This document shows, one piece after another, positions 2-3,860 of a DNA stretch of 20,150 bases (position 1 is the first letter of the stretch; every line of letters starts with the position of its first letter). Under the pieces are notes generated by a model. It did not search any database and was not told where the DNA came from. It saw nothing but the letters and a program-made list of their open reading frames with translations. This DNA comes from a virus, in the IMG/VR virus record IMGVR_UViG_3300010885_004765, positions 1 to 20,150 of that record, one strand, 5' to 3'. The translations under genes were made by a program, and so were the position numbers.

Positions 2-208
2 ACGGCTTTTGAACCAACCGTTCAGAACCGTTTCATCATGTATATTGACGGTATCCCTTCATTTATGATCAAAAGTGCAACTGCACCAAACATCAACTTG
101 AACGAAGTTAAAATTGACCATATTAACGTTTACCGCAAGATTAAGGGTAAGGCTGAGTGGCAGGATATGACTTTAAATTTATATAATCCAATTTCTCCTT
201 CAGGCTAA
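2..208 (+). CDS. 19: Tail tube protein (gp19-like), N-terminal part, cut by window edge and ended by in-frame TAA
   Basis: This is the reading frame that enters from the left edge. It encodes the front part of a T4 gp19-type tail tube monomer, which stacks as rings to form the inner tube of a contractile tail. The frame reads FEPTVQNRFIMYIDGIPSF, later EWQDMTLNLYNPISPSG, and then meets TAA at 206-208. The next codons (209 onward, QAVMEW) continue the same protein in the same frame, so this and the following entry are one gene. PSG-x-QAVMEW is the junction I expect in uninterrupted tube proteins from memory. Codon choice (CGT and CGC for Arg) fits a highly expressed structural gene. The true start lies left of the window. 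The tail tube call is strong; whether the gene is really broken is uncertain. Confidence 0.8.
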   Translation, partial: TAFEPTVQNRFIMYIDGIPSFMIKSATAPNINLNEVKIDHINVYRKIKGKAEWQDMTLNLYNPISPSG

Positions 209-217
209 CAAGCCGTA

Positions 218-454
218 ATGGAATGGATTCGTTTATCACATGAATCAGTAACTGGCCGTGACGGTTATTCTGACTTCTATAAGAAAGACCTTAACCTATC
301 AATCTTAGGTCCAGTAGGTGATGTAGTTTCTGAGTGGATCATTAAAGGTGCATTCATTAAGACATCAAACTTCGGCTCTTACGACTGGTCAAATCAAGAT
401 GCAATCACAATCGAGTTAGGTATTGGAATGGATTACTGTATCCTTAACTATTAA
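218..454 (+). CDS. 19: Tail tube protein (gp19-like), C-terminal part after the in-frame TAA
   Basis: This is the second part of the gp19-like tail tube protein, 78 residues from the first Met after the stop. It contains MEWIRLSHESVTGRDGYSDF and a C-terminal stretch ending MDYCILNY, the typical ending of phage tube proteins. It is in phase with the upstream part; only TAA (206-208) separates them, and codons 209-217 (QAV) also belong to the protein. The ATG at 218 has no ribosome-binding site and is probably an internal Met rather than a start. Alone, this piece lacks half of the tube fold and is unlikely to assemble. Explanations are a nonsense mutation (CAA to TAA is one transition), a sequencing or assembly error, or readthrough. 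A strong terminator follows directly. Confidence 0.8.
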   Translation: MEWIRLSHESVTGRDGYSDFYKKDLNLSILGPVGDVVSEWIIKGAFIKTSNFGSYDWSNQDAITIELGIGMDYCILNY

Positions 455-550: not shown

Positions 551-1312
551 ATGGAACAGACTAAATTTAATCTCCCAACAGAGACTATCGAGCTACCTTC
601 AAGAGGATTATTATATCCTACAGAAAATCCCCTTTCTTCCGGTACTATCGAAATGAAGTACATGACAGCTAAGGAAGAAGATATTTTATCAAATCAAAAC
701 TACATTAAAAGCGGTACAGTATTTGATAAATTATTTCAATCCCTTATTGTATCTAAAATTAACTACGACGACTTAACTGTAGGCGATAAAAATGCTATTT
801 TAATTGCAGCACGTATTTTAGGCTACGGTAAAGATTATGAAGTTAAGTATCCTCATCCAGTAACAGCAGAAGATGAAACAGTAGTTATAGATTTATCTGA
901 ACTTAAGAATAAAGAGTTAGATGAAACTTTATATAATAACTCAAACGAGTTTACTTTTACACTACCTAAATCCCAAAATGAAGTAATCTTTAAAGTATTA
1001 ACTCATAGAGATGAAAAGCAAATTGAAGTTGAGTTAAAAGGACTTAAGAAAGTAAATTTATCTGCAGAAGTTACAACAAGATTAAAGCAATCTATCATTG
1101 CTATTAACGGTAATAGAGAAAAGAAAGATATTAGAGAATTTATAGATAATTACTTATTAGCAGCAGATGCTAGAGCTTTGAGAGAGTATATGAGAAAAGT
1201 AACTCCAGATTTAGACCTAACCTTTACATTCGTCGGCTCTGACGGCTACACAAAGGAGGGTGTAGATCTTCCGATAGGAGTTTCCTTTTTTTACCCTAAC
1301 GCCGGAATATAG
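551..1312 (+). CDS. 26: gp26/T4_baseplate-family protein, probable tail assembly chaperone (short product)
   Basis: A 253-residue protein resembling the phage T4_baseplate (gp26-type) family: the N-terminus carries LPSRGLLYP (residues 15-23), and the end has DLPIGVSFFYPNAGI. It is predicted soluble, acidic and helical, with no membrane segment. It lies between tail tube and tape measure, the place where tail assembly chaperones sit in long-tailed phages. It ends at TAG (1310-1312) just after a run of seven T (1286-1292), while another open frame (+1) continues through 1577 with a protein-like sequence. I infer that this is the short form of a frameshifted pair. T4 gp26 is called a baseplate hub component; which role applies here is not settled by sequence. 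The start ATG at 551 follows an A/T-rich leader without a Shine-Dalgarno site. Confidence 0.68.
   Translation: MEQTKFNLPTETIELPSRGLLYPTENPLSSGTIEMKYMTAKEEDILSNQNYIKSGTVFDKLFQSLIVSKINYDDLTVGDKNAILIAARILGYGKDYEVKYPHPVTAEDETVVIDLSELKNKELDETLYNNSNEFTFTLPKSQNEVIFKVLTHRDEKQIEVELKGLKKVNLSAEVTTRLKQSIIAINGNREKKDIREFIDNYLLAADARALREYMRKVTPDLDLTFTFVGSDGYTKEGVDLPIGVSFFYPNAGI
1283..1293 (+). other. Candidate programmed ribosomal frameshift site (+1 or -2)
   Basis: The zero frame reads TCC TTT TTT TAC. Skipping one base (or slipping back two) at the T7 run enters the frame that is open from 1278 to 1577. The fusion would be about 341 residues: 247 from the first gene, then TLTPEYRSGLFTQIHE and onward. Slippery T runs and frameshifting between tube and tape measure are known in long-tailed phages (-1 in lambda G/GT, -2 in Mu, +1 in Listeria phage PSA). 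Confidence 0.5.
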
Positions 1313-1379
1313 ATCTGGTCTTTTCACTCAGATTCACGAAATAGTCTTTTTCGGAAAAGGAGGTTATGATTGGGATACT

Positions 1380-1577
1380 GTGTATAATATGCCTATTTGG
1401 CTTCGTAAATTTACTTTTAATAATATGAATGAATTTTACGAGAAAGAACAAGCGGAGTATAAGAAAGCAACAAATAAGGGAGAATTAGTAACTGCAAACA
1501 GGCCTCTTGCTAAACCAAACGTACCTGATTTATCCAATATAAAACCAACCTATACGAGTAAAGTGTCTAAAAAATAG
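1380..1577 (+). CDS. C-terminal extension of the gp26-like/tail chaperone protein, probably reached by frameshift
   Basis: Read as a separate gene this would start at GTG (1380) and give 65 residues beginning MYNMPIWLRKFTFNNMNEFY, with a Lys/Pro-rich tail. However the same frame is open from 1278, and the upstream part reads as good protein: RSGLFTQIHEIVFFGKGGYD, then WDT directly before the GTG. No ATG lies upstream in frame. I therefore think it has no start of its own and is made as the tail of a frameshift fusion with the gene at 551. Its place directly before the tape measure gene fits the T domain of a GT-type chaperone, which contacts the tape measure during tail assembly. As a stand-alone small protein it remains possible, since AAGGAGG lies at 1357-1363, but the spacing is too long. 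Confidence 0.6.
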   Translation: MYNMPIWLRKFTFNNMNEFYEKEQAEYKKATNKGELVTANRPLAKPNVPDLSNIKPTYTSKVSKK

Positions 1578-1598: not shown

Positions 1599-3860
1599 AT
1601 GGAATCATTACGTAAATTTTATATGGCTGATCCTGCTGGAGGAAATGGTAATCCTAAAGATCAAATGAATGATTTGAAGGAGACTGTAGCTGATCTTAAA
1701 GATGCCTTTGTAAGCATTGGGCAAATTATTAAGCGTGAGATCACAGGTAATATTAGTGAAGCAGATCAAGCTACCAAGCAGTACGGTAAGTCGATTGCTA
1801 ATAGTCTCGAAGCTACCCTTAAGAGTTTAGGGAAAAATAGCCAAGACGTACTAGATAATATGAAAGGACTTCAAGATGGGTCCTTAAAGTTAACTTCAAT
1901 ACTTAAGCAACAAGATGCACTTGAAAAAAAGCGATTACAAGCTGAACTAGATATTAAAAACGCTTATAAGAACGGCGTCATTTCTTTAACTAGAATGAGA
2001 ACGCTTAGTGGAGAGTTAGCAGAAAAAACAAAAGAACAGAATGCATTATTAGCACAGCAAGGATTAGAAGCTGATAGGATTGAAAAGTCGATGGGTAATT
2101 TAGGTAAGATTTTTAAGGGACTTACTCAAATACCTATAGTGGGGCAGCTTGTAGATGCAGAAAAAGTAACAAAGAAAATGCAGCAAGCCGCTGCAGACGG
2201 TGGTGGAAAGTGGAAAACTTTTGGAGCAGGTATAAAAGCAACGTTCGCATCTATAGGAGAAAGTTTAACCGATCCACTTACTCTCGTAAAAGGACTTTAT
2301 GAAGGACTTAAAAAAGCTGTTCAATTAGCAACTGAGTTTCAATCTAAGCAATTTGAAACAGCTAAAGACTTAGGAGTTAGTGTACAGAGAGGAAAAGAAT
2401 TAAGAGAAAATTTTGTAGCTTTAGCAAAAGCTAATTTAAGTCTTGGAGTAACTGCCGATCAATTACAAAAATCATACGCTGGAGTACAAAACGAACTAGG
2501 AATAATAGTTAAGCAGAGTGACGAATTTAATTTAAGTTCTACCTTAATCGAAAGAAGAACAGGTGCTACTGCAGAGAATATGGCAACCTTACAGTTCGCA
2601 TCAGGTAAGATGGGTAAATCATTGATGGAAGCCTATCAAACAATTCAAGGATCAGCAAAAGCAGAAGGCGGTAGAGTAAAGCTTGCTATGTCAGAAAAAC
2701 AGATACTAGAAGGTATTTCGAAAGTATCTGCTACAGTATACCAAAACTTTAAAGGCAATTATAAGCAATTAGCAGCCGCTGTTATAGAGGCTAAAAAGCT
2801 AGGACTTACTTTAGATCAAGTTAATGGAACTCAAGATCAATTTTTAGATTTTGAATCTAGTATAGCAAAGCAATTTGAAGCAGAAGTTTTAACAGGAAGA
2901 CAGTTAAATTTAACTAGAGCAAGAGAACTTGCTTTAGCTCACGATACTAAAGGTTTAATGGAAGAAATGACCAAGCAGCTTGGTTCACAGAATGAATGGA
3001 ATAACTTAAATACTATTGCACAGCAAAGTTTAGCAGAATCTCTAGGTTTAAGTAGAGATGCTGTTAACCAAATGTATATGGATCAAGAAAAAGCAAAAGT
3101 ACTAGGTGCAGCTGCAGGAGAGGACTTAAAAACTCAGTACGATACTTTAGTAGCCCAAGGACTTGAAAAGAAAGAAATAGTAAGGTTACTAGGTCAAGAA
3201 AGTGTAGCGAGTGCACAACAAGCTTCTATAGCTGAAAAAACAGCAGCTACTATGGATGCTATAAAAAATAGTATTGCAGAAGCATCTACTATTTTATTAC
3301 CGATGATTGAAAAAGTATCTAGCTGGCTTGCTGATACAAAGCACCTTAAATTATTATTTACTGGAATAGTAGGTGTAATGGCTTCTATAGCAGCATATAG
3401 CGTAACAATGAAGATGGCGTCAATGGCGCAAGTAGCAGCACAGATTACCTTGCTAAAAACGCAAGTAGCACAGAATGTTCAATTGCAAAAAAATGTTGTA
3501 GCGCAAGGTATAATTACCGAAGAAGAGATTGTAGGTGCTGGTGCAGCAGCGACAGCAGGGTCGGCATACTTAGGACCTGGTGCATTGGCGGTAGGTGTTG
3601 GAGTTATTGCAGCTCTAGGTGCTTATATAGGAATGAGCGCTATGGGATCTTCATCAACACCGTCTGAAACAAGTATGACTAGACCTATAAATCCTGCAAC
3701 CGCCGCTGCTGATACTTCTTCTTCAGCAGGAAGTATTAAGAAAGAAGCAGAACCAATCTACTCTTTCGTACACGTTACTCAATTAGACGGTCAAGTTCTT
3801 ACAAAAAATGTTACAAAAGGAGTATTAACAACACAAGGACAGGGAAATACCATTAAATAA
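1599..3860 (+). CDS. Tail tape measure protein
   Basis: A 753-residue, strongly helical, Ala/Lys/Gln-rich protein placed directly after the tail tube and chaperone genes, where the tape measure gene lies in long-tailed phages. The tape measure fills the tail tube, sets its length and is released during genome injection. Long heptad-like stretches cover about residues 20-190. Two hydrophobic segments near residues 583-605 (LLFTGIVGVMASIAAYSV) and 656-683 (Gly/Ala-rich) could insert into the host membrane, as is common for this class. The end is a compact segment (about 720-753, SFVHVTQLDGQVLTKNV) after a Ser/Thr/Pro linker. T4's equivalent, gp29, is shorter (590 residues), so this tail may be longer. 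The start could be ATG 1599 or the in-frame ATG 1623 (MADPAGG). No sequence family is named with certainty; the call rests on position, length and composition. Confidence 0.78.
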   Translation: MESLRKFYMADPAGGNGNPKDQMNDLKETVADLKDAFVSIGQIIKREITGNISEADQATKQYGKSIANSLEATLKSLGKNSQDVLDNMKGLQDGSLKLTSILKQQDALEKKRLQAELDIKNAYKNGVISLTRMRTLSGELAEKTKEQNALLAQQGLEADRIEKSMGNLGKIFKGLTQIPIVGQLVDAEKVTKKMQQAAADGGGKWKTFGAGIKATFASIGESLTDPLTLVKGLYEGLKKAVQLATEFQSKQFETAKDLGVSVQRGKELRENFVALAKANLSLGVTADQLQKSYAGVQNELGIIVKQSDEFNLSSTLIERRTGATAENMATLQFASGKMGKSLMEAYQTIQGSAKAEGGRVKLAMSEKQILEGISKVSATVYQNFKGNYKQLAAAVIEAKKLGLTLDQVNGTQDQFLDFESSIAKQFEAEVLTGRQLNLTRARELALAHDTKGLMEEMTKQLGSQNEWNNLNTIAQQSLAESLGLSRDAVNQMYMDQEKAKVLGAAAGEDLKTQYDTLVAQGLEKKEIVRLLGQESVASAQQASIAEKTAATMDAIKNSIAEASTILLPMIEKVSSWLADTKHLKLLFTGIVGVMASIAAYSVTMKMASMAQVAAQITLLKTQVAQNVQLQKNVVAQGIITEEEIVGAGAAATAGSAYLGPGALAVGVGVIAALGAYIGMSAMGSSSTPSETSMTRPINPATAAADTSSSAGSIKKEAEPIYSFVHVTQLDGQVLTKNVTKGVLTTQGQGNTIK

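Follow-up and report, generated by a model that had tools for sequence, protein, structure and literature searches.

Among long-tailed phages, the tail-assembly frameshift has been reviewed as widely conserved 'except T4' (PMC5009743), and T4 gp26 and gp51 are themselves listed as hub assembly chaperones (PMC3004832). In the 2010 survey of Sullivan et al., cyanophage gp51 is described without its first ~200 residues, and the word frameshift is absent from that paper (PMC3037559). We found no papers joining gp26/gp51 to frameshifting in the open-licence literature, although an earlier mention is not excluded. Here we consider a stretch of viral DNA of 20,150 nucleotides (the whole of which we call the window), and hold it very likely that its gp26-like gene, together with the relatives of that gene, gives rise from one start to both a short and a +1-frameshifted long tail assembly chaperone of the G/GT type. 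What has probably come to light is a conserved slippery end of gp26-type genes, with a probable one-base skip and a second domain, shared by this phage with 150 relatives or more.

The gp26-like locus and its second frame

The gene order in the window is tail tube, gp26-like gene and, by position, tape measure, all on the + strand, and the annotated order in Flavobacterium phage immuto agrees. Directly 5' of the gp26-like gene lies the gp19-like tail tube gene (2..454), whose match to PF06841 (E 0.0013) is under the curated cut-off. This tube gene is broken by an in-frame TAA at 206-208 (SPSG*QAVMEW); nearly all relatives carry Ala, Gln or Thr in that column and the window has the sole stop, which is therefore probably a sequencing or population variant. 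Directly 3' lies the probable tape measure gene (1599..3860, 753 aa), so named for its position and length; no family match was found for its product, and the gene at the equivalent position in phage immuto bears the annotation tail tape measure.

Between them, the gp26-like zero-frame ORF (551..1312) encodes a G-type product of 253 aa with the C-terminal end GVSFFYPNAGI*. It passes the curated cut-off of PF12322 (E 1e-8, 35.7 bits vs 24.5) and matches phrog_150, labelled 'baseplate hub', at E 6e-15. Close to its end is a run of seven T (T7, 1286..1292), read in the zero frame as TTT TTT TAC, and the +1 frame is open from 1278 to 1577 (EFPFFTLTPEYRSGLFTQIHEIVFFGKGGYDWDTVYNMPIWLRKF..., stop codon 1575-1577), its earliest ATG, GTG or TTG in the window being GTG 1380. 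The two frames share a dual-coding overlap (1293..1312), read as YPNAGI* in the zero frame and TLTPEYR in the +1 frame, and translation after the shift, from 1293 to the stop at 1575-1577, would add a T-type extension of 94 aa. The earlier note had described this arrangement, with the gp26-like gene ending just past T7, and its coordinates are right; its fusion of about 341 residues becomes exactly 341 when a +1 shift is placed on the second TTT of T7. A Shine-Dalgarno-like element, AAGGAGGG (1253..1260), lies 26 nt 5' of T7, and no usable start codon follows it in the window. Its GGAGG core is kept in relatives, at a spacing (~26 nt 5' of the slip site) that is beyond the usual stimulator distance.

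Conservation, selection and homology

Sequence comparison shows that both overlapping frames are under selection, that the slip-capable site is conserved and that the two parts are homologous to T4 gp26 and gp51. An IMG/VR scan provided a close-relative set of 80 relatives, with 69 non-redundant loci used for the selection tests; kinship among loci inflates simple counts. All 80 metagenomic relatives carry the second part in the +1 frame, with an overlap onto the end of the first, and all of them have T7 except L068 (TTT_CTT_T); amongst the non-redundant loci, T7 is kept in 68/69. The same layout is present in two isolates, Microcystis phage Mel-JY01 (T7) and phage immuto (TTT_CTT_T), and so is not an artefact of metagenomes or assembly; both records list the second part as a small hypothetical gene, which in immuto is truncated.

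The wider set comprises 154 distinct sites, mostly TTT TTT (81), TTT CTT (56) or TTC TTT (13), more rarely TTT CTA (2), TTC TTG (1) or TTC CTT (1), and in all of them the next codons are Trp or Tyr, then CCT/CCA. A zero-frame UUU is followed by U or C at 152 of the 154, so that tRNA-Phe can move +1 with full pairing. A T segment was detectable in 152 distinct loci, and 149 of these have it in the +1 frame with an overlap onto a slip-capable site. Two of the remaining three are without UUU-U/C and have T in a different frame with its own ATG; the third is L290, in which the gp26-like gene stops prematurely, before the usual site. The slip site is lost in L250 (2678-2740) and L254 (2680-2740), where the T domain has its own ATG, a different frame and an N-terminal extension of ~25 residues; these two loci are mutually related and may represent one event.

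The synonymous conservation that the earlier note proposed to compare around the site proves to be strongest exactly there. The five-codon window FFWPD carries the strongest constraint of the gene (Z 6.5, 34 disjoint nearest pairs), and the top five windows all fall on the T7 site and the overlap codons. The Phe-Phe codons are TTT TTT in 68/69 loci, the share of TTT amongst Phe codons elsewhere in the genes being 0.80, and the overlap codons are CCT in 68/69 loci and GAC in 57/69. The SD-like patch (1253-1260) forms a second constrained patch (Z 4.2), where Glu is encoded by GAG 47 times vs GAA 6 times, against 285 vs 1177 in the whole genes. Against the frameshift reading, neither side of the site showed a consistent RNA structure (mean z between -0.3 and -0.9).

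Across the T segment, the +1 frame is open in all 69 non-redundant loci, a state reached by ~0.1% of composition-matched shuffles. In T codons 10-33, which lie 5' of GTG 1380, codon positions 1/2/3 account for 104/56/291 differences, and this third-position excess argues for protein-coding constraint; the earlier note had reported protein-like sequence well upstream of that codon. The same note would have been refuted by homologues in which the 1278-1380 segment is not conserved, or in which the second part always begins at a good start codon; the segment is conserved, and no start of the second part is conserved across the window group. A start codon stands in the GTG 1380 column in only 6/69 loci, most loci have no ATG, GTG or TTG for ~33 codons past the slip site, and the only start column common among them is the methionine of an NMP motif within the T domain. 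GTG 1380 was rejected as the start of the second part, being unconserved and lying within the conserved domain.

As judged by profile comparison, the extension shares ancestry with cyanophage gp51 and, by way of the cyanophage profile, with the C-terminus of T4 gp51. With hhalign, the T domain of the window group matches that of cyanophage gp51 with a probability of 92% (P 8e-7), and the latter matches the C-terminus of T4 gp51 with a probability of 91% (P 9e-7), the P values coming from single pairwise comparisons and not from a database search. Window-group profiles set against the single T4 gp26 and gp51 sequences (hmmsearch, hhalign) gave nothing useful, hence the need for the cyanophage profile as a bridge. 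One alignment (A1) was left out because MAFFT had misplaced its short T rows. Tail-assembly-chaperone families were matched only weakly by the T segment (best phrog_32580, E 0.04), and no credible Pfam family was found for the +1 segment alone: MRP-L51, DUF4222, DUF6760 and Phage_TAC_13 were set aside as weak matches, near chance. DUF6760, a family known from contractile injection systems, was weakly matched by 7 of 38 window-group T segments (best E 0.002); perhaps contractile injection systems with DUF6760 have a comparable chaperone pair.

No PDB relative was found by sequence for T4 gp51 or for the fusion. Structure prediction of the fused protein gave pLDDT >90 across most of the G part and a weaker C-terminal part; modelled alone, the T segment is predicted as three helices (mean pLDDT 73). 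In VIA-align the first rank went to the HK97 tail assembly chaperone 2ob9_B, a modest match (Z 4.9, rmsd 4.0, 96/104 residues), and in Foldseek the HK97 chaperone came second by E-value (E 1.5) with the highest probability among the matches listed. The predicted fold of the gp26 part thus bears some likeness to that of the HK97 tail chaperone, which is suggestive and not proof. The G/GT role that the earlier note assigned to gp26-type proteins gains support, as a comparative inference only, from gene position, gp51 homology, this modest match and the listing of T4 gp26 and gp51 as chaperones (PMC3004832).

How the second frame would be reached

We posit that most ribosomes would read through to 1312 and yield the 253-residue G-type protein, whilst a minority would slip +1 with tRNA-Phe on the second UUU of TTT_TTT_T (1286-1292), the P-site tRNA re-pairing from UUU 1289-1291 to UUU 1290-1292. 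The shifted ribosomes would go on to 1577, so that the GT-type product would have 341 residues and end in a helical T domain. If the pair acts as lambda gpG/gpGT do, the tape measure protein would be coated by the short form, tube subunits would be brought in through the T domain of the long one, and neither form would remain in the virion. The slippage, its direction, the ratio of products and any chaperone action on tape measure or tube are inferred, without expression or mass-spectrometry data.

The earlier note had left the direction as '+1 (or -2)': if tRNA-Phe moved back two bases on T7, the same frame would be reached with one extra Phe (342 aa). Cognate re-pairing after such a step is possible on T7, with UUU on T2-T4, and a -2 shift is what phage Mu employs in a gene of this kind (PMC5009743). 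However, the +1 layout is kept at TTC_TTT_TGG (13 sequences), TTT_CTA_TGG (2) and TTT_CTA_TTC (LR756508), three variant sites at which a -2 step would leave the P-site tRNA on a non-cognate codon, whereas a cognate +1 step is possible in all of them. The +1 half of that claim is therefore the one to which these sites lean, and we regard -2 as improbable.

It can also be supposed that no fusion is made, and that the second part is a separate protein, translated by reinitiation or from an internal start past the gp26 stop. Elsewhere in the family this view is favoured by the ATG that immediately follows the stop in cyanophages (the annotated gp51), the ATG or AUU at the gp26 stop in Ackermannviridae and the clear ATG of the T part in L250/L254. 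In the window group, on the other hand, conservation of the T sequence starts right at the slip site, with ~33 codons free of ATG, GTG and TTG in most loci and no common start column before the NMP methionine. Moreover, the T-rich site is under selection, and it is lost where the T part has its own ATG. For the window group a separate protein has, in our judgement, only a slim chance of being right, although covalent fusion seems not to be strictly needed everywhere, the T part being apparently separate in Ackermannviridae and L250/L254.

Slippage of RNA polymerase on T7, giving mRNAs of changed length and so a fusion, is scarcely credible: T runs can provoke it, but T7 is short for bacterial transcriptional slippage, and the +1 layout persists at sites with an interrupted run (56 sequences with TTT_CTT_T, 13 with TTC_TTT_T), which speaks against it. 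As far as sequences alone can tell, the evidence fits +1 slippage of tRNA-Phe better than either a -2 or a transcriptional slip.

The wider family and known chaperone pairs

The profile phrog_150 (282 positions) spans T4 gp51 in one frame, from 3 to 281, and T4 gp26 to 236 only, and in P-SSM2, S-PM2, HTVC008M and phiM12 its two ends fall in two overlapping frames. The profile phrog_634 detects the second part in these four phages and in phiW-14, Vi01 and T4 gp51, the match in phiW-14 likewise being divided between two frames. Members of the cyanophage-type branch have the second part in the -1 frame, with a heptamer T_TTT_TTY at the FF motif in 77/77 distinct sequences and, in most, GAGGG a short way 5' of it, an upstream arrangement known at other bacterial -1 sites. 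By eye, XacN1 and LR756511 were assigned T_TTT_TTY with a -1 second frame, and SP-15, LIS04, GXN1 and LR756508 a +1 second frame; a locus in an Erysipelotrichaceae MAG (L228) has EFF with a +1 frame. When bacterial genomes were scanned with the branch from Gram-positive phages, a single locus turned up. In the Ackermannviridae (L102, L207-L224), the T part apparently begins at an ATG or AUU overlapping the gp26 stop (TAATG / TAATT), AUU in most; restart is inferred here, and a rare AUU start or a stop-hop is possible.

T4 gene 26 ends TTC TTT GAG TTA CTA TAA, without a slip site and with no T domain after it. In the family alignment every G protein, including T4 gp26, stops close to the conserved FF, and gp51 alone runs on; in related Straboviridae contigs gp51 occupies one frame, except in L237, where its reading is broken at residue 120. 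We propose that T4 has two paralogous genes instead of frameshifting, with gp26 stopping at FF and gp51 representing the unshifted long form. More broadly, it seems to us likely, with less assurance than we attach to the paired products of the window gene, that the ancestral gene of the family gave both a short gp26 and a gp26 extended by frameshifting into the gp51 C-terminal domain. The direction of the shift would have changed at a fixed Phe-Phe, being +1 at UUU-U/C and -1 at U_UUU_UUY, and the shift would have been lost at least twice, through gene duplication in T4 and through the gain of a separate start codon by the T domain, so that T4 would be no exception to the lambda-type rule.

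This offers one answer both to the T4 'exception' (PMC5009743) and to the short cyanophage gp51 (PMC3037559): if true, what cyanophage gp51 lacks is supplied by gp26 through frameshifting, and T4 has its short form in gp26 and its long form in gp51. The roles of gp26 and gp51 become directly testable, +1 and -1 recoding would have been exchanged at one motif within homologous genes, and the genes labelled 'baseplate hub' and 'baseplate hub assembly catalyst' in many phages would need re-annotation.

How, then, does this locus stand beside the systems already described? Like lambda gpG/gpGT and its counterparts in Mu, P2 and HK97, the gene lies just 5' of the tape measure and has a short product and, as proposed here, a longer frameshifted one. 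It also has the overlap of two conserved frames expected of G/GT genes, and a slip-capable site close to where the first one stops. The canonical -1 pattern (X_XXY_YYZ) does not apply, since the offset is +1 in the window and in 80/80 relatives and the heptamer is limited to the cyanophage branch. Unlike lambda, the shift here would be +1 on UUU-U/C and not -1, and unlike lambda G the G part has ~250 aa and belongs to PF12322; no sequence similarity to the lambda-type G/GT chaperones of lambda, Mu, P2 or HK97 was found here. The gp26 and short gp51 of cyanophages (P-SSM2, S-PM2) come closer, with adjacent genes, overlapping frames, a T-rich site at FF and a homologous T domain, although they differ in their -1 frame with T_TTT_TTC, their upstream GAGGG and the ATG after the stop. 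In T4 itself, the zero-frame product has its aligned counterpart in gp26, which stops close to the same FF, and gp51 aligns to the fused length, T domain included, but unlike in the window these are two separate, divergently placed genes. Our best reading of these likenesses is that the two products form a pair of G/GT-type tail assembly chaperones, which for the T4 gp26/gp51 family would be new.
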